Part shown: in pieces, positions 15,511 through 54,137 of the stretch
How positions within the stretch are numbered: position 1 is the first letter of the stretch
Layout: each line of letters starts with the position of its first letter
Origin: Allacma fusca
Taxonomy: Eukaryota > Arthropoda > Collembola > Symphypleona > Sminthuridae
Direction of reading: 5' to 3'
Assembly (NCBI GenBank): GCA_947179485.1
Contig: OX359249.1
Coordinates: 9,424,001-9,488,000, forward strand
DNA length: 64,000 nucleotides
Position numbers and translations under genes: made by a program
Notes under the pieces: generated by a model
Database searches by the model: none
Seen by the model: only the letters and a program-made list of their open reading frames with translations
What the model was told of the DNA's origin: nothing

Positions 15511-16802
15511 TACGTCTCTCTACCTCAGCATCTCATTTTAAGAGCCAAATTCTAGCTTTCGAGTGTGCTTTATGAAACTGAATTTCTCCAACCTTACTCT
15601 ATAACCATATATTTACTCGCCATGCTCGCAGGACTCACGGAATTACCACCAATGAGCGTCAACCCATCTTATGATAAAATTTGTTTAATTTTCTCAGATT
15701 TTCAAAAACCATGTTTTTCCAAAACAATTATGGCGTCGCTCCACTTTCTTAACCGCTATATGGAGTACGAAATACTTTTGACTAGCAGTATAATATTTGT
15801 TCTTCTTCATAATCAGATTACAGTGTTGTGATAGATTGAACCATTAGTAATGTTGAGGTGGATGTTGCCCGGAAATGGTTTGTGTCGTATTGGAATTTAT
15901 CCACAAATTAACATAATAGCTAACTTAATAAACATTATCCCAAAGATTGATCGTAGGGACTTATGACTGCTTTTACAATTTTTTGAGACCTTACGATTTC
16001 AGATTTTTTTTTGAGAATACCAACTATCGTAACTTAAGAGCTACCCGTTACGTTCATAAGATTTTCGACAGTAACCCCCTGATTTTTTTCTTCATCCTTT
16101 AAATTTCAACCTTAGTTCTTCCAACGACAAAATCCGCATACTAGTGAACTTTACGTTTAAACTTTCTATCAACTATAATGTTTTTTACACGACCATTTTG
16201 GAAACACCAGTTTGTAGAACGTTTTGGAATAAAAATTCTGATTTTACAATCTTTAATTGTCCACTTTGGAGTTTCCAGGTCTGTATGTAATTTTGTTCAA
16301 TCTGCAAAATGATTTTTACAAAACCGGGGGATTTAAAAATGTTTAAATAAACCATACAATTTAAAATACCCTTAACATGCAAGCTAAATAAATGTTTAGA
16401 GAAAATAAAAATTTGAATACTTTCTGCGCTTTGGACTTTTGATTTTATATAAAACTTTAAGATTTTGGCAAAACACGTCTTTCGTAGCTGTCTCTTGGTG
16501 TTGTTAACTTTCATTTTCCTCCCACCTAAGCTTTCAAAATCCTGTATCTTTTCACAACCTTTCTTCAATTTTTAAATGAACCTTCCTCCAAATGTGAGGC
16601 TTAATGAATTTAAAATTCTAGAAAATGCTATTAAAGTTTCATTTTCCATTCAAAGACCTTCAGCCAAACATTTTTAGTTTTCTTAAAAGTATAATGTACT
16701 GATTAAAAATTCTTGTGACGAAGATTATCCCCACTACTGTGCTGCAAAATTTAAACTTCTGAAGGAAAAAGTTTCAAATAAATTTTTTTTTCAATCTACA
16801 AA

Positions 16803-19800
16803 TCAATTAAGGGTTGTAGTACAATATGTATAATTTCGATATGGGATATTGCAATTTTCAGTGCAGCACATGCATCTATTCGGTTGATTTCGATAGGATA
16901 AATCAACTCCTTGTTGAATGGAGCCACAGCAACAACAGCTCCGGTTATATGAATTAGTTTGATTCTGTCGCAGGCATTCGCAAGGATCACAAACAGGGCA
17001 AGTGTTAAAGCACTGCTTGACAATAATTCTCTTCTCCTCAGGAACACACTGCCTTTTCTTTTTGGAAGGACAGCAACATATAACAGGCTGTGGGCAAGGA
17101 TCACAAGGGTCGGGAGAAATGGTACAGCAACCTGGAGGACATGGTTTTGGAATTGGTGGGCAGCAACAATCATCACAGGAATTTCTAATGTAAGGATCAC
17201 AATATGAAGAGGAGTTGGAGGTGTTGCATGAAAGGGAACTCCTACCGAACGGGTCGCATGAGGGGTAACTCCTACATAATGGGTCACACGAAGGGGAACT
17301 TCTACCGTACGGGTCGCATGGAGAGGAACGTCTACAGCACGGGTCGTATGAAGGCGAACGTCTACAGCACGGGTCGTATGAAGGCGAACGTCTACAGCAC
17401 AGGTCGTATGAAGGAGACCGGCTGAAACAAGGGTCACAGGACGGTGAGCGGGTATTGTAGGAGGGGTCATATGAAGGAGTCCGTCTGCATCTGTAACTTA
17501 CTGGTAGTTGTGGTCGGTAGCCACAACATACTGAGGAACGCCTACCAGGATCTGGAGTTGGCAATCTTGGTCTTCCACAAGAGCCACTACCACAAGAATT
17601 TACTGGACGTGAGCCCCATGGTGGACGACCTGAAGGTGATACTGAACAGCGAGAGGTGCAAGTACTGACTCTGGATTTTTGAGTTGCACAGCATATGTCA
17701 CATTGACTTGGCTTCATACAACAACTCGTATCCTTTTGATTTGGTCGACAGCAACATCCATAGTCATTTGGTGGAGGTTTGCAACAGCAGGTGCGAGAAG
17801 GGGGAGGGAAATATTCTGCTGGTGGTGGGGTGACCACCCCAAAACTTGGAACATTTGGGACATCGAAAATTATGGAAGGACGATCGCACTTGGGAAAAGA
17901 CGGTTGCGTAACGGGTGTTCGAGGCGGAATGAAAGGAGGAGGTGGGTAACTGAAAGGCGTTATTAGTGGTGGATAATAATCCGGACTAATATTCAATGGC
18001 ACTGCTGGAGGACCAAACACAGTTGGAATCGGCGGTTGGAAAAACAATGGTGGTGGGCGAGTTCCTCCAGGGGGAGGGGGTCTGTAAATTCCCGGCGGAG
18101 GTGGTATATGAACAGCAGGTGGTGGTCGAGGAAAGTTGCAACATGCAGAAGGGCAGCAGGATTGATTCGAACATCCATTAGGTAATCGAAATGATTTTTC
18201 GATTAGATACAGGGTTTTAGGACAGCACGAGGAGTTTTGCATCGGGTAGCCACAATTGTTTTGTCCAATACTGTACATTAAAGGTTGGCAGCCATTGTAG
18301 CCCAAAGATGATGGAATGCAGCAAATGGGAGAGCAACAACAAGAATTCCTCATTTGCCTTCCAACGCCTATACAGGGACTGGGCAGACGAAGACAAGGTG
18401 GTTTTCTTCCACAAGGTCTGCAAAAAATAATAAACCAATGTTACAAATATTAAGGCAAATATTACGAGTATAATACCATAATCAGATCTTCTTTTGACCT
18501 GGTTTATAGTGTTTATACTTTGGAACTTGTAAATGCCACTGAAATTAAACCCATATAACACATGAAACAAAATTAAATAGACATAGTTCCACACTCTTCA
18601 ATTTACTTCGGTGAAGGAGGTCTTGGTGGTGGACCTTGACAAGGCAGTTGACATTGTCTCTGGAAGTTCGGGGGTGGAGGTCTGGGAGGTGGAGTACATG
18701 AATTTTGAACTGCACTGCAGCCAGTAAGCCGATTTAGTACCCTAAATGGTACTGGGGACGGACTTCTTGAGAAATCGCATGATCTAGGTGTGAAAGCACC
18801 GCTTGGTGAATGAACGGGTAAAGCGTCAGATTGCGGGTAGCAACAACCAGGTTCCACATCCAACACGGTGCAGCTCTGTGTAACTTGTCCAGACCCAACG
18901 CGACATCCTTCATATTGCGTCACACCTACCTGACTCTCTACAAACTGCATCGATGAGCTGGTTTTTAATGGCACGGGATTCAGATTAGCGGTGTCAGATG
19001 GAAAAACCTTTGCCGCCATTATGGGGGGAGCATTGGTCTTACAGCACTTCCTTGGACATCTACGGCGGCGGCGACGGCATTTTACTGTTGGTGAACATGG
19101 CTGACTTCGAGGAGTGAAGCAATTTGGCGTGCAGCAGTTAAACGGACTGGACCAACCGGTAACCTGTATGGATGAAATAATTATTGCTTCACTTGAATTT
19201 TGAGGCTATGCTAAACTTTTGTGGTTAACGAACTGTTTTACCTGCGGTGTTTGGAAACAATTCTTTTGACAGTTCGACGTATACGAATAAGGTGTGTTAA
19301 AACCGCTGCAATTGCATGGTGTTTCACAGCTTTGTTGTGGTGTGAAGCATGCTGTGAAATAAGAACGATATTATAAACACACATGGTACACTTCAGTTTA
19401 CATATATTAAAACCCTAAATATAACGTTTCCCCAATACTTTTAACATGGGCCGTGTATATGTACATTTCTCATGAAAAGTGTTTTGAGTTGGTATTTAGA
19501 ACTTCGAACCTTGTATTTCAAAAGTGTCTGTTCTAACTCTGCACCGACGTCTTTGCCTTCTGGGTGTACATCGACAATTTCGATCGTAACTGTGAGCATA
19601 ACTGCAATCAGGAGGAGTTTCTGGAATGAGGAGGCAGTAGTTTTGCGGTGACGAAGGTAGTAGTGACATCTTTCCCCAGTGACGATATGTCGCCACATTA
19701 TGCGCTGAATACTCACATTTTGTACATACTACGGGTACACTTACTCTTCTCTTGAGCAACAGTTGGAGATGTTGTTTGTAGATGTACGCAAGTAATTATG

Positions 19801-19829
19801 GAGACAATAGTAGACAAACTCAAAACCAT
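16803..19829 (-). CDS. Secreted-looking Cys/Pro/Arg-rich protein with decapeptide repeats, 853 aa, unknown family
   Basis: I do not recognise this protein. Exons in order: 19745-19829, 19510-19704, 19242-19351, 18607-19163, 16803-18417; all junctions have GT-AG sites and matching phase, giving 853 residues. The start MVLSLSTIVSIITCV is hydrophobic and reads like a signal peptide. Exons 2-4 carry Arg/Cys clusters (CTPRRQRRRC, KCRRRRRRCPRKCC) and proline runs (PPPRPPPPNF). The last exon has many CC and CCC pairs, a proline-rich block and about eleven units of a decapeptide close to RSPSYDPCCR, then Cys-dense C-terminal sequence with CDPC motifs. Cys-X-Pro and CDPC repeats recall sperm outer-dense-fibre proteins, and the Arg/Cys clusters recall protamines, but the apparent signal peptide fits a secreted structural (cuticle, egg-coat or silk-like) role as well. 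The exon chain is well supported; function is not. Confidence 0.75.
17225..17470 (-). repeat. 30-bp coding tandem repeat in the Cys-rich gene
   Basis: On the minus strand the unit encodes RSPSYDPCCR-like decapeptides. Three neighbouring units at about 17338-17430 are almost identical in DNA, while the flanking ones vary at the aromatic and second-cysteine positions (PSCDPLCRS, PSCDPFGRS). This pattern indicates recent expansion in the centre of an older array. Confidence 0.85.
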
Positions 19830-24854: not shown

Positions 24855-27800
24855 TTATTTGTAAGAAATGTGTTTAGAAGGTAAAGGTAAGTTGTTTGTA
24901 TTTTTAAGAATTCCTCTAGCAGGTTTTGGATCCACTGGCTTTTCTTTAGGCTTATTTCCATTAAGTGTATCTATACGAACCCCTGGGTTCCTCAAAAGGA
25001 TGCAACCTTCCGAATTCACCATTTTTGCCACTGGAGGATTACGATGACGATTCTTATTTTTTGATCGTTTCTTCTCCGCTTCCCGAACATTTTTACTAAC
25101 GCTGTATAAGTATTGTAAAATAATCAGAATATATGCTGTACTGCGTACACATACCTGTATGTTTATATTATACTGATTTAAATATCATTTTATTAATACA
25201 CAATGTGAGACACTTACGTGCGAAGGTCTTCGTAGAATTCATGAATTTCTTTTAACCAACGTCGACGCTTGATCCTAAATAATTGGACAGAATCCTGCCT
25301 CACAACGATTTGACGATGAGTTTTTCTCCTCCACCAAATGACGATTCGTTCGAAAAAACTTATCCTAGGCTTATAATCCCCTCCACTAAAAGTTTCATTA
25401 TGTCCATGAAAATATCGTAAAAACTTGAATTTATAGTTAAATAAATATATATGAACGGGATTAATAATTACTAACGTACTAAAATCCATTTGGGGAGCTA
25501 TCCGTCTCTCGTAAACTCGAGTAACTTGATTTAGTTTTAGAGTGACATTCACAACCAAAAAAATACTGAATCATTTTTTGCCAAAGATTCTGCTTCCTAC
25601 GTTTTTTTCTCCTTCTCCGTCTCTGCTGATACGTTTTACTCTCACTTGACAAGCTGCGATCCGTTGGAGATTCGGATAAGTTTCTGTAGTAGCGGCGGCG
25701 ATCATGCTCCTTTTTCAACCCTGCTTTTCTTCGGGAATTATTGGACTCCTCAGACGAACAAGAATTGGAGGAGTTCATATTTCTGTATGGTTTATTCCTT
25801 CGTCTGGATCTTGCGTTACGACTTGTTGGGCTCAAATTTCCGCCTTTATCTGTTTGGGAGATTTTAATTTTATCCGGATGTAACGGCACCGTTTGTTTTT
25901 TATGCGTCACTCGTTTCTTCTGCTTGGTCAGTCTGTCATGTTGAGAAAGTTTGGAAGATCTACTAGCTTTTGTTGCTGATGATGAAGACGTTTGTTTCCA
26001 ATGACCCATCTTGAGTACTTCTGTAGACTCTTCTGCAGTACTACATTCATGGTGTTTTTCTTTGACAATTGGTGAGACGGGTTTCACATGAGACTTACTT
26101 TTCTCTAGTGATGTTGCAATTGGCGATTTGCTCGGAATATGCGTGTTATTGTTACGCTCATCATCGATGGCTTCCGATTTGGAAAATGCGCTCCTCAATT
26201 TAATTGCAATATTTCTGGATGATTTTTGGATTGTAAACTTGCCCGGGGAATCAGGTCCGGTGGACGAAACGGAGGGAATTCCGTGTTTCAAGAATTTTAT
26301 ATCCATAATTTCGGGTAATTCGGTGTCTGTGGTAAGGAGTGATGAAGATGCGGTTAAAGGTTTTGCATTTTGACTTGCCTGGTGATCAACCTTGAATCTG
26401 ACAGAAGACGCTCTTTTGTTCTGACTTTTCTTCAGGGCTGCCTTTTGATTGCCGAACTTGGTTTCGTCGCCTTGTTGTGAGTGAACAAATACTTGATTGC
26501 AGATAATACATGTGTTGCTGTCCTCAAATATTTTCTGGTCTTGGTTGTTATTTTCGCAAGAAGCAGTAGAAGGATCACTTCTGGTGGAATGTTTTGAACA
26601 GGAAATACTTTTTTCTAAGGTTTTGCATTTCAGAATGGATGATTTGCTTAAAGGAGTTGGTGGCGGATAGAATTTATAAAAGTTTTCTTCATCTATGGAC
26701 TCTGAACTTTGCGGGTAGAAGGACTGTTCAAGGCCATCGTTTTGACTTCTTCCAAACGCTTCCTCTTCAATGTTAATGTTTACAGGCGATGTTTCAACAC
26801 TACTCGCAAAACTTTCCACTGGAGAAAAAGAGAGCAATGAGCCGGAGCTGGGAACGCTTGGAGATGATCTTGTTCTAAGATGAATTGTTACAGCACTTTG
26901 GATTCTTGGAAGAATTTTTGAACTTGAGGACAAAAGTTGAGTTGCTCTAAAAAGTTCCACGGTTTCGGGATCTGGTTTCGGAGTAGTGATCCTAGTAGAA
27001 CTACCAGGATTTCCTGTATCAGTTTTAGAGCTGTCTTTGAACTCAGTCTTCCCGTCAGGAGTTACAAGTTCTTGTGGATCATTGGGTACATCAAGGGTTT
27101 GTTCTTGCAACACATTAGTAAGCTCTTGTGTCGCTGGTTCTTCTGTGAAATCGTCATGGCACTGATCAGTGATTGCAACTGACACAGCCTTTCTTCGCCG
27201 ATGTTTTCGATCTGTTCCTTGTGTCTTTCCTGGAAAATTGTTGGTCTCTACGTTGTACACAGTGAAGATTCCCGGCAGGGAATGAATGATTCGAACACCG
27301 AAAATATCCATGGGCTTCGAGCAGTACTGGTGTTTATCCAACGCTGCGATGCTATTAGATTCATTACAGGAGATACCGGAAGGATTTCCTGAAGACAGCA
27401 ACATGAAAATTATTATTAAAATTAAACAAACCAGGATTTCCTTCACATTTGAGCGTACGAGCTTGAAAAGGTTAAACTGTAGAGTCAAATAATTCAGATA
27501 TTAAAGGAATCCTTAAGTTGTTTATTTAGATACTGAGACCCAAAATATTTTAGAATACCTTCGTATAAAACATTAGTTTCTGGTGGTATTGATTTTTTAG
27601 ACATGTTTAGCTGGGTGCAGACTGAATCTTGAATTGCTTCAATAGACTCGCCAGCGACAGTTCCCTTGTTTTTCTCAGCAGTACATTTGGTAACATTTCC
27701 TCCACATGATTTCAGTTCCGTTATAATAATAGAGCCAGAATCTGCAGTCCTTCCTCGACAACTCCTGCAGGTCCCGTCTTCGTCCTCAGAAGTGTATTCA

Positions 27801-28561
27801 TGGATAATTGGAGACTGTGAACTACGAGCCCTATTTGACTTTCGGAATTTCGGAGGTTGCACCAATACGACAGCTTTGTCATCTTCTACTGGGACATCAT
27901 AAATCTGACAAGACACGGTTGGGGACTTGAATAATTGCGGAAATAAGAAATCTTCAAAGTCATTGAATGACTCAAACTCTTGAAAAGGATTGAAAGTACT
28001 CCAACTAAACTCCCGAGGAATATTTGCATTGAAGTCGTGGTCTGAGGTCTGCTTGTACTGATCATCAAAGTCAGTAAAGAAATCATTCCAGGTGTCGTAG
28101 TCGAATCTTTCTGACCAAGAACCTGGAAGCCAGTGACATTTGTAATACATGGGGAAAGAAGCTGCCTTGTCCAATGAGATACGGGTTGTGGACTTTGTGG
28201 ACTTGGTTACTCGTGGGATTTTATGCGGAGGACACCCCCATAGTAAAATGTCTTCGGCCTCTATTATTTCAAAAGGAACTTGCTCAAGACTGACCTCATC
28301 CTTCAGTTCGTTGACCTCATCCGTTTCCGTTTCTTCTTGTAGTTTCTTGGAATCACTGTCTGATGACTGTAGCTGAGACTGTTTTGAAGATAAATGGCGT
28401 GCTGTGGCACAAGTACATTTCGATATGGGAGATGAAATAACATGACGGCGAGCTCTGGCACGGATCTTCCGGACTGTCTGATTCCTATTCTTGTACAAGT
28501 GGCGTCGACTATTTTGATATGAGTTCCAAGTGGAGCCGGTACCGTGGCAGAAAAAAACCAT
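24855..28561 (-). CDS. Unknown Ser/Arg/Lys-rich protein, 1,108 aa
   Basis: Not recognised. Four exons in order 27559-28561, 25480-27388, 25218-25385, 24855-25101; every junction is in phase. The start is the ATG at 28561 (MVFFCHGTGS, context AAAATGG). The N-terminal third is basic then acidic and aromatic-rich (about residues 130-220: FDYDTWNDFFTDFDDQY, FNPFQEFESFNDFEDF). The middle is Ser/Thr/Pro-rich and probably disordered, with one CIICNQVF motif. Toward the C-terminus there are strongly basic tracts (QQRRRRRKKRRKQN, FRIKRRRWLKEI), suggesting nuclear or nucleic-acid contact. Left unspliced, the start of exon 2 would read as a hydrophobic segment (EILVCLILIIIFMLL); the intron 27389-27558 removes it, because donor GAAG|GTATTC and acceptor TTCAG|GAAATC fit in phase. 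So I do not call a membrane anchor. Confidence 0.75.
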
Positions 28562-31500
28562 TTTATTTCCAGAGCAGTGGCTGTGTTTTCCAAGGTATGC
28601 CCCACATTTTGTGTTGCGATTTAAACCTCTGGTAGTTTTAGGAAGCCATTTTCTTCGGAAACAAAATTTGATTAGCCAGCAATGTCAGCATCAATAAGCA
28701 ATACATCAATATATTCTTTGATGATATAATAAGGACTACATAATTTGAACAAGAATAATTATTGAACAAGTACATATTCAATCGTGCTAGAGCTTCAAAT
28801 ACATTACATTATAACCAGGCATCGACAGACACGCCGACAGGGGTAATCCCGAGGCAATTTTGTAAATTATAAAGCCTAGGAAACTCTAATTTGTCAAATA
28901 AAGCACTGGGAGATTAAATAATTTGTTTGGACCAATCCGGGTAGCAGATATCCAGACTATTACATTCGGCATTCGCCATCAAAATTTCTCGTGATGTTGA
29001 TATCAATGATTACACTCGGGTGTTGCGACCATGTATTATACTACCCGGATTCTCAATTTTTAAATAATATGGCAAAAAAATAGCATGATTTTATTTTAAT
29101 GCTTACAATGTATTGTTGGTTTATTGTACCGGGTGGTATACTACCTGGGTTTTGTGCACCCGTAATATTTACATAGATCTAGGCATAAACCAATAATATA
29201 TTGCGTAATATAAAATATGGTATTTTATAACATTTATTAAAAATTGAAAATCAGGGTAGTATGTTACCCGGTTGCTACACCCGACAAAGAACGTTGATGC
29301 CAGTAACATAATTAGGAGCAAGTTTTTGCGAAAATAGTTGCGTTCAAATAACCAACAAATATCGCCGAAATCTTGTCATTACTAATCCGGGTATACTCCT
29401 ACTCGAGTTCATTAAAAATATGTATTTAAGCTTCCAGTGCCATATCTGACCTGCAGTTGTTTCCTTGTTCATTTCAAGGGGTTATTAAGGGATAGTCCAG
29501 GGCCTTACTGTTACCATTTACCAGCATCAAATAAAATTAGCACTAGCACTGTATTTATCTTTCTTACATGTTGGAAGTAAAGAATGAGGATTTTAAAACT
29601 GGCAGATGTCAGTCGACACTGCAGAGTGGACTCAATGACGAAAATCCAAGTTGACCAAGACCTCTGACGGGTCAACTACTCGAAGTCAAGATCATTGTCC
29701 GCCGTAGCCAAAACCGGACCAATTCCTTGTCTTCAACAGCATTTTTGTATTGATGACAGACTGTGGACGTTTGAGTTGACACTACTGACACTGATGGCTG
29801 ACGTACGTGGAATACAAAACAATCAAATTGTTCAAGTGCACTCACATTTCTTACACCGTTTCTGTCACTTGAGTTCTTAAGTTCTTATACTTTATTTTGA
29901 GTCAAAAGTTTACCTAGTGATTCAGTTTCACTATCACTGTCACTGTTGTTTACTGAGCAGTGAAAAATCCTTGTCGTTTTGTATGGTTATTTTTAGTTAC
30001 GAATTTATTATACTACAGCATATTGTACTTTAACAAAATGTTCTTATAATGTATTTATAAAGGGCTTTTTTTAATGTTCTCTTTATTTTGCGTGAGAAAT
30101 TGAGAACGTGAAAAATTGCAAGTTACGAATAAATAAAGGTAAATGGAAGCCACCTGAAGATTGCAATAAAATAGAGTATTTGCTATTCAATCCAAAATAT
30201 ATTATCCTAGGGGTATCCTTTACTTTAGATTTCTTACATTTGATAATTTTGTAAATTAAATGTTTTACCTATCACTATTTCGCGTTTTGCTGCGCAGCGA
30301 TATTCGACTAAATTTGCAAAAAAAATCAGCGTATATTATTAAGCGATATATATTTATATACTTGTATTGTTGGGTTTTCGGCAGCGTAGCTGTTGGGTGG
30401 GATTGGTGTGTATGCAGGTTTGGTTAATTTATAATGTCATTGCAAAATGCAACTTTTTTGCTTCGTTCAAATTAGTATGAAATAATAATAATTTATTATT
30501 ATTTAATGATAATCTAATTGAAAAAGTCTTGATTTCAATTTCAAACTTTTAATACTTTGTAACAATAAAATACTATTATTATTTTGTTGGAAATAATATT
30601 GGTAGTTTTGACAGTAAGAAGTTGGAAAAATCTGGAATTTTTTTACACAAATAAATTTTCACAAAAGTCAAAACTGTTTGCTCCTGATTTCTGTTTATTG
30701 ACCTTTTAAAACAATTTGTCTCCACATTTTTGGTTGTTGTGGCCCCAGTTTTTTACGTGGACTGATAATATAAAATGAACTTCAATCCCAATGGGATTTA
30801 CTACAAACCCAGTGCTTTGAAATGTTTTTATAACCGCTGGAGATGTGGAAAATACTAAGTTTAATCTAAATCATAAATACAATATAAAGCTTCAAAAAGT
30901 ACGAAATACCTGCAGTGCTATTTTTAAAAATACTGTTGAGGAAACTTCGCATCATAAGTTATAAAATATCACCAAACTATTGTATTTAGAGTACAAATAA
31001 TAATTTGTCAAATACTTTACCCCTAAAACATGTATTCTGACTCGGTAATCTTGTACACAGATCAAAAATATGTGATTATATATATATATACCTATGATTA
31101 TTCAAAATTACACGTATAAATATGACATTTGTTATTGTTACTTGTTACAGGAAATTGGCCTGTCGGAAAAATTTACAAAAGACATATTTGTTTTTGTTTA
31201 GGGTAACATTATTACCACCCCCTCCACTCACAACTCTAGAATAATAATTTCGCGAAATTTTTTCAAAAACTCATGTTTCAGATTTTAGATCTGATCTCCT
31301 TACTGCAAGAGAAGTAAACAAGCCGATAAATCAATATGGCCGGATAGTTTATGTTATTACATCATTTGTGTGGGCCAGAAATGGAAGTCTTCCTCAATTA
31401 ATGGGTTGGGTAATGGCTACATCTTATTGCTCCACTAGTCTTCGTATTTCCTGTTTCAATTTCTACAATATTACAGAACCTTCCGTCATCATTATCCGTA

Positions 31501-31877: not shown

Positions 31878-34040
31878 ATGTCAGAAGCGCCAAGAGACTC
31901 GGTAGACTCCGTAGAATTGGATGAAATTGATTCTACACCAGTAGTAGCTCCGGCTGAAATTGCAAATACTTCTGAAGAAAAACCCCCTGGTGAAGAGCCT
32001 GGAAGTGATAAAAAAGCTTCAATTGAACCACCACCTGCAGGAGAAAACCGAACTTCAGTATCACCCCCCGAGGATCCCACAAGAACCTCAGGAGAACAAC
32101 CAGAAGATGATGCCCGAACTTCAACTGAAATACCCCCAGGGGAAAATACTGACGAGCAACCAGCTTCAATCAAATCGACTGATAAAAGCCCTGCTGAGCC
32201 TCCGCCAGAGGGAACAGCGCCCCGAAAGTTAGTCCGAAAACAGTCTGATGCTGATGTACCAGAAGACGACGATGATATAGGTAAGAGTATATTCTATGTT
32301 TGCTATTATTCAAATAAACCAGTGAATAAAAAAATCAATGAATGCATTCCCTGACTCGATGAAAGATTCGGAAACCAAAAATGACGAAGTAGACGAAGAT
32401 TTAGAAGACGAAGATCATGCAGGAGAGGAAGAAGAGGAAGATGAGGGTGAAGACGAAGAGGAGGATGAAGAGGAGGAGGAGGAGGATGAAGAAGAAGAAG
32501 AGGAAGAAGTGGTGGAGGAATCACCAGAGGATCTAGAAGCTCGAATGAGGAAAAAGCAAGAACGGATTGAACTGTACATTGATATGAAGAGAGATTACAA
32601 ATTCCTGAATAAGAAAAATGCTTGCTTACAGGACAAGTTATACAAGATCAGTGTACGGAAAGGCTTCATCGTCGAAAATAAGACAGAAGAAGAAAGTGAC
32701 AAGTCCAAGAAAAAGAAACGGAAAATTAGCATCAAACATTCTGAAGACGAAGATCCTGACGATGTAGATATGGATGAGGACGATGCTCAATTTGAAGGAG
32801 AACGCTCAGAGAGAATGGAATCTGCAGAAACGGGAACTGGAGGTGGGATTAAGAACTTCTTAGAAGCAGCTCTAGAGTCCAAGTACAGTAAAGTGGTTCG
32901 TCGGATTTGGAAATCTGAAGAATCCAAAATGAATGATTCTATTACTCATGAGATGAATCTCGATAAGTTCAAAGTGAGTTTGTAAATACTCAGAAATCAT
33001 TACTATTGATATTGATCTGACATGAATCCATAAGTAGCCATTTGGACTATCGAATAAATCAGACATAATAATTGTAGGAGAAAAGGGACAAGTGGGAGAA
33101 GATTCATCAGGAAAAATTCTTGGATTTTATGGACCGAGTCCAAGCTGCAAGTGATACAGCTATAGATTCCAATACCGGCAGTCATATCCAACGTTGGGAG
33201 ACGCAGCAGTATGTGGAGGAAGTATCTAAAATTCATTCAAAACTGTGCAGATCTTTAGTAAAAATGTACCAAAATCGGCATGGCCTGGAATTTTCCTTGA
33301 AACGCTTAGAAGAAACGGAAGTTCAGGGAGAAGGTTTACAAATGCTTGAGTATGAGCAACTTCAAGCAGAAAATTATTCCCTGAAAGAGAAACTTGAAGA
33401 CAGACAAAAGGATGTTGAAAATATTAAGGGCAAAATTGCCCATGCCGTTCAAATTTTGGCCCATTTCCGAGAATGTATGCATAGACTGACAGAAAAGATG
33501 GAGGATGGAAACACCAAGCTAACTCTCATTAACAAAAGAGTTTACCAAGTTCGAGAGATCACTGACGTCGTCACTCAACGATATGAGATTTTCAAGGAGG
33601 AAGAGAAAAATTTGATTTCTGTGTCAGGTCTCCTTGATAATACAAAGTTGCTCAGAGATTTTGAAAAAACTCACTTTGATCTCCTGGACTTGAAGGAAGA
33701 AAAAAGGAAGTTGCAGAAATTCTTACAAATTAAATCAAGGGAAATTGAAGAAATTCAGGCTAAATATAGAGATATTCATCTGAACCTTCCAAGATTGAAG
33801 GAGATGGCGAAAGAAGGGAAAGACAGCAAAGGTGATGTTTTAAATCAGAATGTTGAAAAAATTGATCCAGTGGCTGCGAAACGTTTAGAAAGGGAACGTT
33901 TAGAATGGTTGCTGGAAAAACGGAACCTGGATCCCAACAAGCAACGCAGAAGAAGAAAAGTTACTACAGTCAAACCATTTGCTAATAACACGAGTTCGGC
34001 GGCGCTAGTAGAAAAATACAGATGTCATTTTCAAATATGA
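31878..34040 (+). CDS. CCDC96: CCDC96/CFAP184, axonemal coiled-coil protein, 657 aa
   Basis: Cilia- and flagella-associated protein of the DUF4201 coiled-coil family; in ciliates and vertebrates it partners CCDC113 on the axoneme near the radial spokes and nexin-dynein regulatory complex. Exons 31878-32280, 32366-32973 and 33078-34040 join in phase. The acceptor at 32366 has a weak pyrimidine tract and is the least certain junction. The N-terminal part is Pro/Glu/Ser-rich and acidic, with an almost pure Glu/Asp stretch encoded at about 32420-32515. The C-terminal 320 residues are a long coiled coil with the family core LEYEQLQAENYSLKEKLEDR. This layout (acidic disordered head, C-terminal DUF4201) is typical of CCDC96. 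A Lys-rich KSKKKKRKISIK patch lies in the middle. An AATAAA is at 34233. Confidence 0.85.
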
Positions 34041-34238: not shown

Positions 34239-34547
34239 CAGCATTCCGGAAAGTAACAAAAATCTGTATTACATACATATATCTGTTGGCAATTTAATCT
34301 TCAGTACATATTGTCTTACTGAGGAAGGTTACAATAAAATCAAACATTGCAAATATGTAAAAATTAAGAATCAGCTTTCTTATTATGAAATACATTACGG
34401 ATAAAAAAATCTGGGCACATCCTAGACCTTGTTTCATTTTTTGTACTTTTTGGAAATGAAGCTTTCTTATACTTACTTACATGCGTCTGTCTGTTATCCT
34501 ATAAAATCTTGTGGTTTGCATATCTCAGCCACGGAACGGCGTACGAC

Positions 34548-34709
34548 GATTTAAACCTGAATTTCGATTTAAACCTGAATTTCGATTTAAACCTGAATTT
34601 CGATTCAATCCTGAATTTCGATTTAAACTTGAATTTCGATTTAAACCGGAATTTTGATTTAAACTTGAATTTCTATGTAAACCTGAATTTCGATTCATAC
34701 GTGAATTTC
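34548..34709. repeat. 18-bp tandem repeat, nine units
   Basis: Nine consecutive copies of a unit close to GATTTAAACCTGAATTTC with few substitutions (162 bp = 9 x 18). Because 18 is a multiple of three, the array is open in both directions and produces spurious DLNLNF-type and RNSGLN-type peptides, which I do not treat as genes. Confidence 0.95.
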
Positions 34710-34947
34710 GACTGATCCGTTTTATAGCTTCCATTCAAAGAATTTAGTTCTAAAGTTGAACGCGTATTTGTATGACACCTGTAATTTGATACAAAAGTAT
34801 ATATAAATTCAACCCTACATCTTTGCATCTAATACCAACTTACGTCTAAATTCAAACTTCAGTCTGTATATAAACTTTAGTAGTGCTTTAACACGTCACG
34901 ACTTATGGCTGAATCTGTTTGCTGTAACTTAAAATCACAATCCCAGT

Positions 34948-36261: not shown

Positions 36262-37650
36262 CAACAGTTGGTATTTTGTTAGAAGTGGCCGTTGGGCGTT
36301 GGGGCCGGGACAGTGTGTTGGGCACCTTGGCTATATACAGCTATACAGGCCCTATAAATACGCGATGATATAGGCGGGCTGGAAAGTGCAGAAGGTGAGG
36401 TGGGCGTGGGCAAGTGGGCACTGTGGGCAGAATAAAGGATAGACATTGTATAAATACTAGGCTAGAGGTTAGGAAGGCAACCATAACACACCCATTATGT
36501 ATAGGCAAGGAAAAGGAAGGGAGCCAACGTGCCAAGCGTTGCCGATCCTGTCAGAATGTGGTGCTGAAGGGTATACCATTCGGTGATTTTACATACAAGA
36601 TAATCGGTAAGAGCAAATGCATTCGCTGGCTGAAAGTAGGATTGGACCACATCAAACGTTTTATTGGAATCTGGTTTTGGGGTTGTTGGTAAATACAGAA
36701 TAAGGAACAATAGAAATGTTTTGTGCTGTTCGATAAATAAATAGAACTTGCATAGTTAGAAATGCAAATGCAGTATTACTTAATCACATAGGTAGCACTA
36801 CTCAAATGCACTTCAAAACTAGGCAAGGTGTTGGGCAAGGTTATATAAATAAATAAATATATATACAGTATTATATCAATATTGGTCACGATTGTCAACG
36901 CTGGCCCAATATTGCACCAACGGACATTTTTAGCAAATCGCCAACTGGGCTTGAAGTTCAAACTGATCTAAGACGGCTAATTCTTATTGTTGGCGAAATG
37001 TTGGCCCATGACCCATGGTAATTGTTGACTGGGAAACTTACACTATATTAAAAGCAGTACTGCTGTTATAGGTTAGTTATTATTTTTATTATACTAGGTA
37101 TAGTGGAGGCTTGCGAGGTTTGCAAAAATCCGTACAGTAGTGCATGGGCTTTTTTTTGCAAAATATATGTAAATATAATATAAATAAATATTTTAATTTA
37201 TGTAACACAACATATCATATACGCATGTTGCAATTTGCAATGAAATGAAAGTCCTATTTATTGACACCACAAAATGTTTATAACATAGTTTTCTATGGAA
37301 GTGAAAATTGTCAAAAATTAACGCTTTACCTTTGATTTTGATATTTGGGGAAAAGTGTAAGAAAACATGCACGAATAAAAGTTAAATCCGTCAAATTCAA
37401 AGATTAACAAAAAATTATTCATTTGCAATCTGCACTGCATTCTGCAATGCTGTAAAATGTACATAAGTACGACAACAACAAACCACAGCCACATCCAACT
37501 GATTATCCGAAAATCCGATTTCGGTTTCATACCTTTCCTCCCTTATCATCATCAGTAGTACAATTTCCTATAATTATTACAGCCCCCACTTCGCTTTCTT
37601 AGGAAACTGCTATTATACTTTTTTTCACGAAACCTTGACGAAGATGGATC
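36262..37650. other. Spacer between the hAT element and SPEF2
   Basis: About 1.4 kb without a supported gene. A frame at 36414-36692 contains two close cysteine pairs but has no ATG-plus-splice support or family resemblance I can name. The SPEF2 promoter is expected toward the right end. Confidence 0.55.
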
Positions 37651-37804
37651 CTAAAGTTTTCAATTAAGAATCTAAGTTATTACTCAGTCTTTTTGAATTG
37701 AGTATTGACCATTTAAAGAACTGGAGCCTAAAGTTTTCAATTAAGAATCTAAGTTATTACTCAGTCTTTTTGAATTGAGTATTGACCATTTAAAGAACTG
37801 GAGC
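37651..37804. repeat. Perfect 77-bp tandem duplication upstream of SPEF2
   Basis: 37651-37727 (starting CTAAAGTTTTCAATTAAG, ending AAAGAACTGGAGC) is repeated without a visible mismatch at 37728-37804. The second copy ends 85 bases before the SPEF2 start codon, so the duplication lies in its 5' UTR or core promoter. Confidence 0.95.
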
Positions 37805-37889
37805 CACCATTTTGATCATTTGTGTAACTGGAAATAATATATTCACATCAGGTTCTAGGTTTTATATATTGAATCAAAATAATTCCATC

Positions 37890-40800
37890 ATGGGGGAGTT
37901 TTTGATGCATTGGATAGAAAATAAACTTGGCCTGAACCTGCCATTCTTTCAAGGTATAAATAATTATTCATTTTAAATTCACAATGAAGACTTTTATGGT
38001 ATTTGACATTGTATTGTAAATATAATATTGTATTTTGTGATCACTTCCATAGATCCGCAAAAATTTAGGAAGGCCATGTCAAACGGTTACTTAGTTGGAG
38101 AAATTTTGAGGAAATACAATGTTATAAGCGATGACCAGTGCATCTCCCTTAAAAAGACACTGTAATCATAAAATCTCTAACAGTTGAATTATTGCATTCG
38201 GAATTATACCTCCTCAAAAATTCCAGGAACTTTACTCGGACTGAGCCTTTGCTAATTGTAAGTTCATATAAAATTATTCATATTTGGTCTAAAACATGTG
38301 TCGTTAAAAATTTTAGGAACAACAAATGCTCCGTGAAAAATATGCAGTACATACACAAATGGTTGCGGGACAATGGACTCGGCACGGATTTTCAGGAACT
38401 GTTGGCCATTGTGGAGGTTTGAAAAAGTTTGTTCAGAAACCCAAATGTGTTCATCCTGTGTAATATCAGTAGGTCTTGTAAAAGCTATTTTAATGAAAAA
38501 CAGGAAGAACCTGGAGCTGCAGTACGATTCATTTATCGTCTATACCTTTGGCTGGAATCACCAAAAGGATTTACCATCGCGGGGTTCAAACCAATGCCAA
38601 ACCTTCAGAAATACCTGAGGCATACGGCAATAGGTGAGGAGGATTCCAGTGCCTGCGGTAGACCCAAATCAACGAAAGTTGAATTTAAACCATGGGAATC
38701 TTTGGCAGAACGAAATCGACAAGCGATGGAAGCAGGAGATAACATTCAGTTTACCAGTGAAATGAAACAACATATTTATTATGATGTTCCTCTACAGGTT
38801 CATTTTAAAATTTGTTGAGAAACATTATGAAAATTATTACCTATATACAGTAATCATTACCTCATCAAGTGAAACTAGAGTAACAGTTAATGTCTGACAT
38901 GCAATTGCAGCCTCCAGTTCTGCTGAACGTAAAGCTGGGTAGTGGTAATAACGAAGGTAATGACACCGAAGATCTGTACTATGATTTTCGGAGCAAGAGG
39001 AAGTCTCCAGAAAAAGCGGAGTCAAGTGGTCCAGAGATTGACTGGAAAAGTCAGATTCCACAACCAGTGACAATTTGTAGCTTTGGACGGTAATAGTAAA
39101 TACTACTCCTCCACTCAGCAGAACTACGTCAGGGTCAAATGAGACTTCTTAACCTTATGACCCGGACTTGTCCACTTGAGCTGAAACATTCTCATCTACT
39201 AGCTGTTTACAAAAATATTGGTTATTTATTTTGCTATGTTCACGATTTCTTGAATTTTCCGCAGTCCGCATCCAACCAAACAACAACAAAACAACAAGGC
39301 TTGGGTAAACAAGGCTTGTTTACCCACGGAATACTCCAATACAGAAATAAAATCTTCAATGAATGAAATGAAGAAATTTAATGAAGTTGTTCAACATAGC
39401 TTGGTATCAATATTAGTTTTATTTATACGTTTTTTGGTAAAACTGGAGAAAATATATCACATATATGAAATTGTTGACACTTGAACAGGATAAGCAGCCT
39501 GCTATCGTAAAAGTCTACGAAAACGGACTGGGAGATCCCGAAGATTACAGAAAAAGTCTGTTAGAAATGAAGAAAAAATTATCGGATGAACAAAAGTTAG
39601 CGAATGAAAGAGCCAGTTACAGGAAGAGCCTCACCTGCAAACTCCAAACAGCAATGGCTGAGGAGTCGGTAAAAATACAAACATGCAAAAACATTTACGT
39701 TTCGTCTTTCCATTCATACTCCATAACAAAGGCATTAAATGATCTCAAAGAGCAAAAAGCTGGATGAAGAAATTTTAAACAAACTGTCAAATCTTCCGTC
39801 TCGGGAAAAAAATCTAGCGGAATTTGTAAGTTCTCTTCATGGCTTGAAGCAGTGTTTTGTGGATCATAAAGTATACGAAGAGAAACAATTGGCAGATTAC
39901 CGAAGTATGGATGTTTTAAAAGAGATGAGCTTAGTTGATGTAAGCATAATTTTGGAGAGTTGATATGATTATATGTAGGCGCAGTCAAGGCAAACTGTTT
40001 CTATAAGGGATGAGTGTCCAAGGGAGTCACCAGTCGCAATTCATTAAATACATGACACCAGAACTTCTTCCGGAAATAAATCCGAAGAAGCTTTGAAAAG
40101 AGTATACTAGCTGGAACTCTCTCATACACGTTCTTTTGGAACGCACTTAATGAACTTTTAATGAAACAAAAATGCAGACCCATTTACCGTCCCTTGTATT
40201 AGGAATCTACTAAGTATGTAATAACGTGTTGGTAATAATTCCTTAATTATCTCAATGTTTTTTGCCTGAAATATTGCAGCAAAAAGAAATACTTCGACGG
40301 TGTTTAGCTAAAAAAGATGTTGATTTCAAAGCATGCGTTGAGAGTGAAACCATTCGTGCACAGCAAGCTGCTTTATCCCAAAAGGTTGCAACCGATGTCA
40401 GTGGTATACTCGATCATCTCTTGGATTTGGTGATTAAAATAGCAACTTTTCGGGATACTGCTAAAACGTAAGGAAGAACGCCTCTGCGCGACATGCAGCC
40501 AAACATGTTAATTATTTGGCACAGCTGAAGTTAATTGTACATGTAATATCAACTGATTTAGTGATCCACCAGACGCTTTGTTAGAAGAATGGAAAGAGGA
40601 ATTTCACCGAGCAGACGCTCTACAAGAAGCGAACGAAGCGTCCGCTGAAAGAGAAACAATGTCCATGTTGGATGACATTCGTGTCAAAGAATACTTGTTT
40701 AGGGAAGCTGCTTGGAATGTAGAAGTTCCTACATCTGGGGACTTCAAGGAAAATTACATTCTGAAGAAAATAGTCGCATACGTCCTCGAAGGTCTCTATC

Positions 40801-43800
40801 CTCCTCCAATTCCTGACCCAACTCTACCACCACCTGAGTTCGTTGGTGCTGTTGCTGTTACTGGAGTCAATTTCCAGTGGGTTGCTTCGATAGTTCGAGA
40901 GTCTTTACTGAAAGTTGCGGAACGTAAGATTATTTTGAAATGAATAGCATAACTAAGAAAATCCTTATTCACGGTTAGAATGCTCCTGGTAATAAAATGT
41001 CAATAATAGTTCCTCATGATCAGGTGTGCGTAAGTGCGCACTCAAGTTACTAGCCGGAATTTGAGATATGAGTTCGGTCCACAAGTTAACGTTCTCAAGA
41101 GTGTGAATTAGTGGTCACAATTACTTGTTGGACCAAACTTTGGTCTAAAGGCACACTGGATTATCAAGATAGAGAGCGACTTACAGAACATCACTCTTGA
41201 GGAACTATGATGTTCAAACTTTGCAACCTTTAGCATTTGCTTTTACTGTAGAGTATCATTGGTGATCGGTTTGCTTTTATGTTCTTCCTGTTTAGCTTTC
41301 TCCTTGTCTCTACACATTCTGGACGTGACTCTTGTGGTTCAAGAAGCTGTAAAAGCATACTCTACTGCCCTTGCTCTGTCTGCCGATGCTGAAATGCTAA
41401 ATGGTAATTTCCAAATGTATTCATCTTTTCCAGGCGAAGTAGAAGGGGAGGAATTTGAGACTCTGTGGAGTCGTTCTCGGAAGCCTGAATTAGAAACAGG
41501 AAACACGGATGAGGAGGAAGAGACTGATGCTAGTGATGTGCTTGAGAACCCGGAGTCAGTGGTAAAGTTTGAGCAAGGATTACCTCAGAGTAAGGAATTG
41601 ACTGAAACAAACTATCTAAATAATAGTAACCCTGAGGATAAAATATCTCTGTCGAACGATACTAAAAATATTCCACGAGCTCGTAAGAGCCCAGTTAAAA
41701 TAACAAATAACTCAGAATCGAATCCAAGTGGGGTCCCACCGGACTATGAAGAAATAAATGACGAAGCTGTTTCTCCATTAAATTATGAGCTTCCCACAAA
41801 TGAGAAAGAAGTTACAGAAAATACTTTAAAGGAAGCGTTAGCAAGGAAGCAGCGAAGGAATACTAACCAAAAGAAGAGTAAAGACTCGCAGTATTATTCA
41901 GAACCTCCGGAACACTCTCAAGTCTATGAGATTGTGAGAGAGTCTTTTGGACCTATGCTTGACGCTACGACAGAAGATGATCTTCAAATTCTCTTCAGTC
42001 CTCAGGACCAACCCGAATCGTGGCCCGAGTTTGTGAAACTGGGAAGGATTGCTTGGGATCAGCTCTTGACAGGGTACCCTGTCAGTGACTGGCTCGTGGC
42101 AAAAATCGTGGCTGAAAGGATGAGGTACGTACGTATTTATACGGAATGTGGCTACTCATGGCTCATGAGTATCTGCAATAATTATTGACGCAAGAGCGTG
42201 TGTTCAATTTTTAATATCTTAATGGCATCTGCTTGTTGGTGCCTGTACTTTTGTAATATCAATAAAATGACTTCACATGTGAGGACCTACAGCTTACCCT
42301 CTCATAAGGATAAGATATTAGAAAAGCCCAGGTCATTTCGTCTTTGAAGAGGCAAGATGATTTTGTACAGCATGTAGATCATTTTACCTCTTCAGCGAAG
42401 AATAATACCTCAGGAGCAATTACAGATATTTTTGTTAGTAATGCTCCTGATTTTTGCGTAGACATTACCCAGCAAACAGCTACGTGATCGTTCTCAACTA
42501 CCCCCAGGCAATGTGTCAAACCGTATATTTAGAGGATACAATCAGAGAAAATGATTTGCCCAGACCTCCCTGTTATCATCATGTGGACACTCTGATTGAA
42601 GAGTTCAAGAAGCTTCGTAGTGACGAAGGTAGGCCTTCGTATTAAACGCCAGTACTTGTACCATTTCCATTGGAATTTTGTAAGAAAGCAAAGCTTCCCA
42701 TTTGCGCTCCCGAGATACCGGTGAAACCAGGTTTTCGGGCTAATCAGATTTAATTCCATTTTGATGTGGAATTCAGGCTACTTGTTCTCCATGCAGATTT
42801 TGTCAATTTTTTATGAACAATACTTGGATTGTTTCAAAAATGGCAACACCTGTCTTTGAGCGTTGACATGTTCTGACCACTAATTCTGGAGCGATAGCGC
42901 TTCCTACGCTGATTGCAAAACTGATTCCAGATTGCAAAGCTTTCAAATTAAAAAGGGTTTACGTATGCATGTGCAGTATAAACTCAGCAGTGTCCCCAAA
43001 TATGCTACCATTTACATGTTTAAATGCGTGATCTTACTCATTACGGGAATTACACCCATGGCATTATCTGAGCAAAATTGTTTTTTAAGTTGGCCCTCTC
43101 ATGAAATCAGCCGGGCAAGCTCTGGCAACTAATAAAGCTCAACATGAGTCTTTCTTGTTCAAGTACAACAACGAGCAACGCGTCCCAGGTGAAGCATTTC
43201 GAAGCTTTCTGGATGCTGTTATCATCGCTGATATTAACCATGAACAAATATGTGATCCGCGGGTTATCAACAATTGTAAGGTTTTTTTACAACCGTTTTG
43301 TTTCTAGTAATATTTGTTAGCAGGGGTGGATTAATAAAATATTTTTTACCCTGGCCCTAAGCCTCAAAATGAATTTGTGGGCCTTTCCACTTGCAATATG
43401 GGGGGGGGGGGCTTCGTTAATTTGTTTTTACCCTGGCCGGACCAGGGTGGGCCACCCCATACATTTACCCCTGTTTGTTAGGTACTTTAAATACAGTATC
43501 TTTGTTCCTGTATTATTAGTGGATGAAGCGCAAGAAAGAATGATCCGTAAAAAAGATGGCGATACGGTGGAGGAAAAATTAGATGTTTTAAGACATCTGT
43601 CATATCTTCAACTGAAGAAGTTTTATCTGGACCTAGGGTTGGCATACGTGCTGGATTTGGGGGTTCAGTCGGAGCCTTAGTAAGTAAAATATGTTTTTTC
43701 AGCATTAAAATGTTTGTGTCCGGTACTAGCTGCATTAAATGATACAATGTTTGAGATTTTAGGACATTAAAAGAGGATCAAGCTTAGAAAATGGGGCAGA

Positions 43801-46800
43801 GTTTTTCCTACCTGGATTTTCGTGGTAGTAGATAGTAAAAGCGTCAGGCTAGAGATCCATATTTGAACTTTCTAGGTTGGGTTTATGAAAATTAAATGCT
43901 ATATTTGATTTGACGGTTACATTCTAGCAGTCAGAAATAATTTGTTCATAATAAACAAAGAATAAATTATTTCGTTTGAAGAATTAAAGCTAGAAAAATG
44001 CCACGTTAAAGTGTAGTAAACGGAAATTACGGATACGTAGGATTCTATAATTGAGTACAAGTTCAAGTCGTGGTCAGGTTTTGTTTAAAAATTCATTATT
44101 TGAATCATATTCGTTTCTTCAATTGTGTTTGTCTTTTTTGGATTATAAGACCAGAAGATAGCTCAGGTTTGTGATTTAACTTGTAGTTTATAATATTTTG
44201 GGCTATTTAATCCCATCTAGTTACTTGGCTTTGAAGGAGCTCATGGAACAAATAATTGCTGTCAAGTACGATAGCCGTCTTGGGTACGAGTACCCAGGTG
44301 AAGTCATACCTGAAATGGATGGAGTTAACAGTGAAGAGGAAGAAGTCAGCACTACACCTTTAGTTGATCCAAATGAAGACGAATCGGAAATGCAAGATTC
44401 TGAAAGGGAACCACGTTCTCCTGATAAGAAAAAGAAAAAGGGGTACTTTGCGTGAAAAACTATTTAATAAAATTAATGCTGAAAAATTTGTGCATAGATA
44501 TTTTTGTACCTATATCCGCCTTTTACTGTCGATATAGTTCGCTATACGTACACTGCCTCAACAATGTATGCACAAAAATGTTTTATTTATGAATAGCAAA
44601 GGAAAAGACAAAGGTAGCAAAGAAAAGGGCAAAGGTAGCAAAGAAAAGGGCAAAAAGAAGTCAAAGGAGAAGAAAAAGTCAAAAGAGAAGAAAGGTGGCG
44701 ATAGTAAGACCAAACTGAAGAAAAAAGATAAAAGTGGCAAGAAGGAGAAGAAAGCGAAATCCAAGAAAAAAGACTTCGATGCTACTTCTGAAGGTATGCA
44801 TATAGTCTTTAAATACCTAAAGTAATAACATCCAGCGTCAATATGCAGCTATATAATAACCAGATATCAAAGCTTTGTTCAAGTTATATGGTTCAGCCGA
44901 CTTGCACTCTCGAGCTTGATTATTCCAGTGAAGAGTACTTTAATAATATCGACCTTGGAAAGGATAACCTTTAAAAGTTTTTGTACACAATTCAAGGCCT
45001 TATACTGATATTTGAGTCTATTAAAAAGCCGAATTTGCGAATCTTGGATCTTCTGGTTGTTAATCCAACTTGATTCAGACTTAGATTCTGAATCTCGGTC
45101 AGACAAACTTCAAAGAAGTTCTTTTTAGGGTATCGCCCCTAATAGGTACTAAGTTACCTGAATGGCCAGTTATTAAGTGTAAATTCAAGTAAAAATCTTC
45201 AAATTTTGCAGAGGAGGAATGGAGCGCCGAAGAAGAAATGCAAATTGAAGGACCTCCTCCAGAATTATCCCCACAGCCTTCTCCAGCAATTTATTATAAC
45301 ATTAAACCTGAAGATTTGGCTGTAAGACTGTTTGCCATTTTTCAAATTATTTTTTAAAACCGGGTGAGATAAAATTTAAACTGATTTTGTCTTAGGTATT
45401 AGGAAACTTCTGGACTAACATGGAAGAGCGCTATATCCGGGGGATTCGTGATGCCCTGAATGAAATTCGACATTCCCACGATCGTGTAGCCATGTTTGCT
45501 GACCAATTTCGTTCGAACCTGAGGGACTTCTTGGAACGGCCAGATAACAAGCAAAGTCTACTAGTACAGTAAGTTCTTAATGGAAATTTGATTGAGAATG
45601 TTGAAATTACAAAGATATTTTACACACTTCAGGTGAAGTAATACTTTCAAGATTGCGTACCAATTTTCCGAATTCATTGACCTAGGTAAAAATTTGTGGC
45701 TACATACATCTGTCAAAAGACTTACAATCAGACAAATTCAGGAGGTTTTGCGAGAAGGTAACTATTTTTCTTAAGAAAAGGCTTTATCACTTTAATTGCC
45801 TCACTTACTTCTTATTTTGTATTTGAATCGGAAAAATGCATACATTTTCGTCACATCTTTGATAAATGTGACCACAAATTTTGGCTTGAGATATTGAAAT
45901 ATGACAATCTGAAAGTTTGCTACAAAATATGGGAGGTGAACATTTTAGGACATTCGCCTTCGCCCACTGAGTTGGCAACGGCGAACTGCTTCTTCACAAC
46001 TTTTACACGGAGCTTAAAATAAATGCTATATTTGCGGAATAACGCTTAATTATTCCAGATTCCAAGAAAAATTTAACCAGGTGAGTAGCTACATTCGTGG
46101 GGACTACGAGGTAAAGGCAGAGCTTCATAATCGGGTGTCAGAGCTTAGGGAGAGACTCAGTGCAATTTGTGATGAGAGGCATGATGAAGCAGTGCAAGAG
46201 GTGTTCTCGATCTTAAGTCAGGGTTATTTAGAAGGAGAAATAGAGATACTCACGAACCTATTCATAACATTAATCCAAATGGAGGCAGATCACTACTGTG
46301 ATGTCATCCAATTCATCAATGATTTTTACTGCATGTCCGGACTAGTTAAACCTGAAACACTTCCTTGGTGTGATGTACTTCGCATTGAACTCGTCTCCCG
46401 CTCAAGATATGCCTCACGACAGTTCAATCACTTTCGTAATGATGGAGAAGAAGAGGAAGAGGAGGAAGATTTCCAAATGAATACTTTATCTCAAATGCTG
46501 AACAATAATTTGTTAACCACAGATCGTGACGTCTCTTCGTCAATGCAAGTACAATCATCTAGGGACCAGACGAAAAGTAATAAAGATACAAGCGCTAGAT
46601 CTACTAAAGGTTTTAAAAAACCGTTCAAGAGGTCAGAAAGTCTTGTGAACCCTTTCCCTTCTAAGCAACAGCCAGCAAAGCCAAGAAAGTCGACAAGTGA
46701 AAAACTAGTTGTTCCTGAAATTCCCATTGAGTTCCGTGGAGAGAGCGCTGAAGAAACAATTATTATCCCTCCACTGGAAGAAAATTCTAATTCTGCCCCT

Positions 46801-53857: not shown

Positions 53858-54137
53858 ACAAAATGAACATTGCGTAGTGTAGCAAAAGATACGAAAATTA
53901 ACATTGCGCTGTAAAGAAAATGATACGAAAATTAACATTGCGCTGTATAGAAAATGAACACAAAATTAACATTGCGCTGTGTAGAAAATGACACGAAAAT
54001 TAACATTGCGCTGTATAGAAAATGACACGAAAATTAACATTGCGCTGATAGAAAATGACACGAAAATTAACATTGCGCTGTATAGAAAATGATGCGAAAA
54101 TTAACATTGCGCTGTACAGAAAATGAACACAAAATTA
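53858..54137. repeat. 34-bp minisatellite, about eight units
   Basis: Tandem copies of a unit close to GAAAATTAACATTGCGCTGT followed by ATAGAAAATGACAC. Most central units differ at only one or two bases; the outer ones are more diverged. Confidence 0.9.

Follow-up and report, generated by a model that had tools for sequence, protein, structure and literature searches.

A 64-kb stretch of the Allacma fusca genome (the window, in whose positions all coordinates are given) contains on its minus strand what is very probably a real gene, as predicted from the DNA. Our best model of it extends from 19669 to 16803, comprises four coding exons and encodes a protein of 813 amino acids rich in proline and cysteine. 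We propose that the product is an intracellular, disulphide-hardened structural matrix protein, most plausibly of sperm, and give this reading a probability of about 0.4; a signal peptide is not supported. The proposal is carried by an in-frame excess of synonymous differences within a decapeptide array, by a coding start at 19669, by a non-hydrophobic N-terminus and by the Cys/Pro composition, while a weak first splice donor, the lack of a close AATAAA and the failure of conserved-gene codon usage to discriminate count against it. We assign the gene with high confidence to chromosome X1, which measures 55.59 Mb in an assembly of 392.8 Mb and 95 scaffolds, and RNA-seq of A. fusca is said to be available for annotation (PMC10427803).

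The initial annotation had joined five exons in phase to give 853 residues, and this join was reproduced exactly (Table 1); on the contig it spans 9,440,803-9,443,829. The last exon runs for 538 codons without a stop. In the preferred four-exon model five of the six splice edges are consensus-like (19351, 19242, 19163, 18607 and 18417) and the phases agree throughout. The remaining edge, at 19510, has a weak donor (GTTCGA) that departs from the consensus and was the sole in-phase one spotted by eye. For the second CLPB intron checked in the window the best donor was GTTTTG, so this genome may make use of non-consensus donors. No AATAAA was found within 900 bases past the stop codon, where only an ATTAAA occurs, about 545 bases away.

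Table 1. Features of the gene and its surroundings, in window coordinates.
Feature	Position	Strand	Remarks
Five-exon model of the initial annotation	19829-19745, 19704-19510, 19351-19242, 19163-18607, 18417-16803	-	in-phase join; TGA 16805-16803
Exon 1 of the initial annotation, signal-peptide-like start	19745..19829	-	dropped from the main model; possible alternative first exon
Coding exon 1, preferred model	19510..19669	-	ATG 19669 (MSLLPSSPQNY...); contains CRCTPRRQRRRCR; donor AAG/gttcga
Coding exon 2, preferred model (exon 3 of the initial annotation)	19242..19351	-	acceptor cttatttcacag; donor CCGCAG/gtaaaa; phase-matched to both neighbours
Coding exon 3, preferred model (exon 4 of the initial annotation)	18607..19163	-	acceptor tcatccatacag; donor ACCGAA/gtaaat; sole genome match
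Last coding exon, with TGA stop (exon 5 of the initial annotation)	16803..18417	-	1615 bases; acceptor tattttttgcag; sole genome match
Arg/Cys cluster KCRRRRRRCPRKCC	19041..19082	-	residues 118-131 of the 813-residue model, from translation
Proline-rich spacer	17895..18134	-	about residues 371-450 (813-residue model); in 50-residue bins, 17 Pro in 351-400, 18 Pro and 0 Cys in 401-450
Decapeptide array, consensus RSPSYDPCCR	17211..17483	-	eight clear units (17483-17241) and one decayed (17240-17211)
RCC1 repeats	5.7-7.2 kb
CCDC96, open frame	33078-34034	+	PDB match; axonemal
SPEF2	46018-46995	+	PDB match; axonemal; at most about 14 kb from CCDC96
DHHC acyltransferase	57-58 kb
CLPB, Skd3-type, ankyrin and AAA exons	60106-62382	+
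PEX16	63 kb

The preferred model differs from the five-exon model at its start. The latter opens with a signal-peptide-like exon, from which secretion had been argued; neither the exon nor the argument was supported. The intron that would connect it to the next exon (19744-19705) is 40 nt long and by eye has no pyrimidine tract. Intron lengths were estimated from the gaps between adjacent TCP-1 chaperonin matches genome-wide (30 kept, 4 dropped because too many residues were missing): none of the 30 fell below 60 nt, with a minimum of about 68 and a median of about 119. Two CLPB introns in the window, chosen by eye among listed GT-AG pairs, measured 92 and 85 nt.

Codon usage was trained on exons 3-5 of the initial annotation (759 codons), with the tested exon outside the training set, and compared with a null of equal-length open windows outside the gene, which overlap and include other genes. 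The 53 codons from the ATG at 19669 scored 12.8, a value attained by a fraction of 0.0005 of 2185 null windows. The 28 codons of the dropped exon resembled background, their score being reached by 30% of 6210 null windows, as did the 42 codons directly upstream of the ATG at 19669 (85% of 3353). Codon usage of conserved genes (1627 codons) separated neither the exon beginning at 19669 (47% of the null as high) nor the dropped exon (34%); since it is the usage of exons 3-5 alone that separates the former, the test depends for the most part on amino-acid composition. We set the start at 19669 because an intron of 40 nt lies below the range estimated here and coding-like codons begin there, not before. 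The N-terminus thus obtained has no hydrophobic stretch (best 11-residue Kyte-Doolittle mean 0.42, versus 2.4 for the dropped start), and no 19-residue window of the 813-residue model exceeds 0.86, a membrane segment not being evident. A TATAAA lies at 19836-19831 on the minus strand, one base ahead of the dropped ATG; should it be a TATA box, the transcript would begin only downstream of that ATG.

These observations bear directly on the main rival, in which the gene encodes a secreted extracellular protein hardened by disulphides, such as a component of a spermatophore, sperm-cyst secretion, eggshell, cuticle or gland glue. We consider this possible but doubtful. Its signal peptide would come from 19829-19745, joined either through the 40-nt intron or directly to 19351, skipping 19669-19510; spliced straight to 19351, the exon would make the protein a secreted one. 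The direct join is phase-compatible, the intron would be 393 nt long, and the donor is GTAAGT. The peptide itself, MVLSLSTIVSIITCVHLQTTSPTVA-QEK (cleavage guessed by eye), is hydrophobic, and by eye its ATG has a good Kozak context. There is also precedent in the chorion of the moth Hyalophora, whose Cys-rich proteins harden it through disulphides between them (PMC13409908). Insect chorion and other secreted Cys-rich matrices share with the present protein repetitive segments and possible cross-linking through cysteine, and differ from it in that its signal peptide is unsupported and no Pfam family was matched. Against secretion stand the out-of-range intron and background-like codons described above, together with the loss of the coding-like, Cys/Arg-rich 19669-19510 that the direct join would entail. 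A TATA box at the TATAAA, moreover, would put the transcript start downstream of the required ATG.

Use of the frame is supported most strongly by the decapeptide array. Its units, in register, read RTPSYDPSYN(T), RSPSCDPCFS, RSPSYDLCCR, RSPSYDPCCR, RSPSYDPCCR, RSSPCDPYGR, SSPSCDPLCR, SYPSCDPFGR and, decayed, SSLSCNTSNS. Identity at a lag of ten residues was 47 of 85 within the array, compared with 12.0 ± 3.0 in shuffled sequences (maximum 23, n = 2000), and 132 over the whole 813-residue protein, compared with 70.3 ± 7.7 (maximum 97). Tandem Repeats Finder (TRF) reported a 30-base unit in 6.3 copies (score 196). It is this lag-10 test that distinguishes the array decisively from chance, and not a count of decapeptide-like windows: seven scored at least 25, whereas shuffles averaged 1.1 but reached as many as 8 (n = 500). 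The best decapeptide score was 63 against a top shuffled score of 45, with a consensus drawn from the protein itself.

With the units put in register by peptide, units 1-8 gave a proportion of synonymous differences (pS) of 0.64 and of non-synonymous differences (pN) of 0.21 in frame, a relation that was reversed in the shifted frames (pS 0.17 and pN 0.38; pS 0.23 and pN 0.35). All ten slots in frame, the decayed included, gave pS 0.67 and pN 0.35. The synonymous excess is thus confined to the annotated frame, as expected of a repeat that is translated and constrained. Another frame of this strand (16799-17497) is open for 233 codons over the array, and the lower pS than pN in both shifted frames argues against its use.

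The number of units had been put at about eleven. While the array itself is confirmed, this number is not: the ninth unit matches the others at 14-17 of 30 bases and has decayed, and a tenth slot matches at 6-9 of 30, so that we count eight or nine. The near-identity in DNA claimed for the central three holds, units 4 and 5 being the same at 30 of 30 bases and unit 3 differing at 3 of 30, which points to recent duplication. To call the array expanding is fair for these central units.

Proline makes up 18.0% of the 813 residues, cysteine 12.9%, serine 11.7%, arginine 8.4% and lysine 2.6%, with about one cysteine in every eight residues, often paired; in the 853-residue model the values are P 17.2%, C 12.4%, S 11.6% and R 8.1%. 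The Arg/Cys cluster KCRRRRRRCPRKCC, polyproline and many CC pairs, all listed in the initial annotation, are present. In the 853-residue model none of 500 shuffles had as many CC pairs (28, shuffle mean 13.0), PPP (15, mean 4.3), CDP (7, mean 0.6) or runs of three basic residues (7, mean 1.0), and the same held for the CDPC, RR and SPS counts. The dipeptide CP was depleted (8, compared with 18.3 in shuffles), and C.PC occurred 3 times (mean 2.1, equalled in 170 of 500). The protein is basic, with 89 Arg and Lys and 41 Asp and Glu among its 813 residues.

No match to a known cuticle, chorion or sperm family emerged from Pfam or the PDB, in agreement with the initial annotation. With the 853-residue model as query and a threshold of E 10, at which HMMER filters nevertheless discard most matches above E of about 0.1, Pfam yielded no family (alpha-crystallin, chorion and cuticle domains included) and a phmmer search of the PDB no matching chain. 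When the last exon (537 of 813 residues) was used as query, viral contigs gave two pattern matches and prokaryotic genome contigs 14, none of them a relative. Together these collections say little about presence in insects or other springtails. Paralogues were sought in the 392,743,791-base (393-Mb) genome (91 contigs), scoring the best one to four candidates per search, with queries taken from the last two coding exons. Among the candidates scored across the whole genome, exon 5 of the initial annotation with the eight preceding intron codons (545 residues, E ≤ 0.001), exon 4 of that annotation (E ≤ 1), the C-terminal 228 residues (E ≤ 10) and the array DNA (E ≤ 10) each matched themselves only. 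Within the window, tblastn (E ≤ 1) recovered, besides the gene itself and self matches of low complexity, a single weak match (40791-40841, E 0.30). The label of orphan structural protein accordingly stands, provisionally, within Pfam, the PDB and the organism's own genome (exons 4 and 5 of the initial annotation and the C-terminus).

A description of this gene was not found among the top-ranked papers, judged by the openings of their abstracts, and neither was a paper joining outer dense fiber with a Cys-rich, Pro-rich insect sperm tail. In the mosquito, many sperm proteins are uncharacterised (PMC9934393). A lead to crystallomitin was dropped for want of a composition to compare, as cysteine and proline are never mentioned in PMC6388916.

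ODF1 carries a CDPC-type motif, and a resemblance of the CDPC motifs to outer-dense-fibre proteins had been suggested. The resemblance is one of composition: CDP and CDPC are enriched, C-X-P weakly so (24 in the whole protein, mean 18.1, equalled in 34 of 500 shuffles). ODF1/HSPB10 has 250 residues, an alpha-crystallin domain and several C-X-P repeats in its C-terminal domain (PMC8913478). The A. fusca protein is likewise Cys/Pro-rich with CDPC-type motifs, and disulphide cross-linking would be expected of it; unlike ODF1 it is 813 residues long and shows little C-X-P enrichment. Because the Pfam search found no domain in it, alpha-crystallin included, we rejected membership of ODF1. The Mst(3)CGP proteins of Drosophila carry a repetitive Cys-Gly-Pro motif (PMC10645079). 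Those such as Mst84D and Mst87F resemble our protein in their low-complexity Cys/Pro repeats and as presumed intracellular structural proteins, whereas its repeat is the decapeptide RSPSYDPCCR. Its translation contains no CGP run and one strict CGPCGPC-coding pattern had no match in the whole genome, so membership of this family was rejected as well.

How such a chain might work can be outlined on the precedent of mammalian ODF1 and SMCP and the Drosophila Mst(3)CGP proteins. Proline would keep the chain extended and disordered, and the paired cysteines of the array (CC, CDPC), with the flanking cysteine clusters, would form disulphides within and between chains late in maturation. Before oxidation, chains may be held together by the Arg and Asp of adjacent units and possibly also by phosphorylation of the RSPS motifs, which we take to resemble SR-kinase sites; such sites could keep the chains soluble until late. 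Such chains would set into an insoluble material, either elastic or stiff, for which the maturing sperm cell is the most plausible site.

Animal proteins that exceed 10% cysteine and lack a signal peptide belong for the most part to sperm, to the keratin-associated and cornified-envelope groups or to the metallothioneins, and from arthropods chiefly the sperm class and metallothioneins are known. It is because the present protein exceeds 10% cysteine, has no supported signal peptide and comes from an arthropod that we favour sperm; we infer both the step from composition to cross-linking and that from cross-linking to sperm. In Drosophila, deletion of the Mst84D genes disturbs the axoneme and the nebenkern derivatives (PMC10645079). 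Collembolan sperm axonemes, including those of Allacma itself, are without accessory tubules (PMC7140630); one obvious place for such a protein is thus missing, which counts against the simplest version of a sperm role.

The same composition would suit a somatic intracellular structural protein, for example epidermal or tracheal, as a counterpart of keratin-associated or cornified-envelope proteins. No somatic arthropod precedent is known to us, and since nothing in the sequence favours this alternative over sperm we think it unlikely, although the cuticle of A. fusca is thicker than that of other springtails and its tracheal system is complex (PMC10427803). It is more improbable still that the model is partly wrong, the locus being a pseudogene or the last exon alone being translated. 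The absence of a detected homologue, the weak first donor and the distant poly(A) signal would fit such an error, but the open last exon, the protein-type variation of the array, the consensus-like splice edges and the agreement of phases argue against it.

A sperm nuclear basic protein or its precursor, with Arg/Cys clusters binding DNA, is the least probable alternative, to which we give hardly any weight: R+K is just 89 of 813 residues against 41 D+E, and over most of its length the protein is rich in Pro, Cys and Ser. The description of the protein as protamine-like fits its short clusters, KCRRRRRRCPRKCC (six arginines flanked by cysteine) and the shorter RRQRRRC, but not the whole chain, which differs from protamines in its size, low overall basic content and dominance of proline; as arginine is not abundant over most of its length, membership of the protamines was rejected. 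Some sperm nuclear basic proteins of insects seem to arise by cleavage of larger precursors, and cysteine is present in some (PMC12216123), so the Arg clusters may have a small role of this kind.

Two axonemal genes, CCDC96 and SPEF2, share the window with the focal gene. They lie at least 13 kb away on the opposite strand with a gene-like region between, and for this reason lend little weight to a sperm role. That region (25482-28684, minus strand) consists of two long open frames of 673 and 396 codons that abut at 27500 in different frames; Pfam (E ≤ 0.01) found no family in it, so that it joins the focal gene as an unplaced, gene-like stretch, situated on the near side of CCDC96. Tandem arrays occur at 34547-34711 (18-base unit, 9.2 copies), 37645-37805 (77-base unit, 2.1 copies, 98% matches) and 53856-54126 (34-base unit, 8.0 copies). 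Scans of the 64-kb window with Rfam (gathering threshold) and for tRNAs gave no hits in either case.

As it stands, this is a gene without a known relative, and it offers a clean example of a recently arisen tandem peptide repeat within a structural protein of low complexity. Its practical value lies mainly in the corrected gene model and in the specific test that the model allows. In its most specific form, which we put forward tentatively and lean against, our proposal would describe a springtail-restricted, X1-linked sperm protein without homologues, hardened by disulphides and built from a new, still-expanding RSPSYDPCCR repeat independently of the CGP repeats found in flies and the C-X-P repeats found in mammals; the sperm of this lineage have no accessory tubules, and its males are presumed to undergo paternal genome elimination. 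If the protein does belong to sperm, it would point to yet another separate emergence of cross-linked, Cys/Pro-rich material there, and would provide a molecular handle on the little-known sperm of Collembola.
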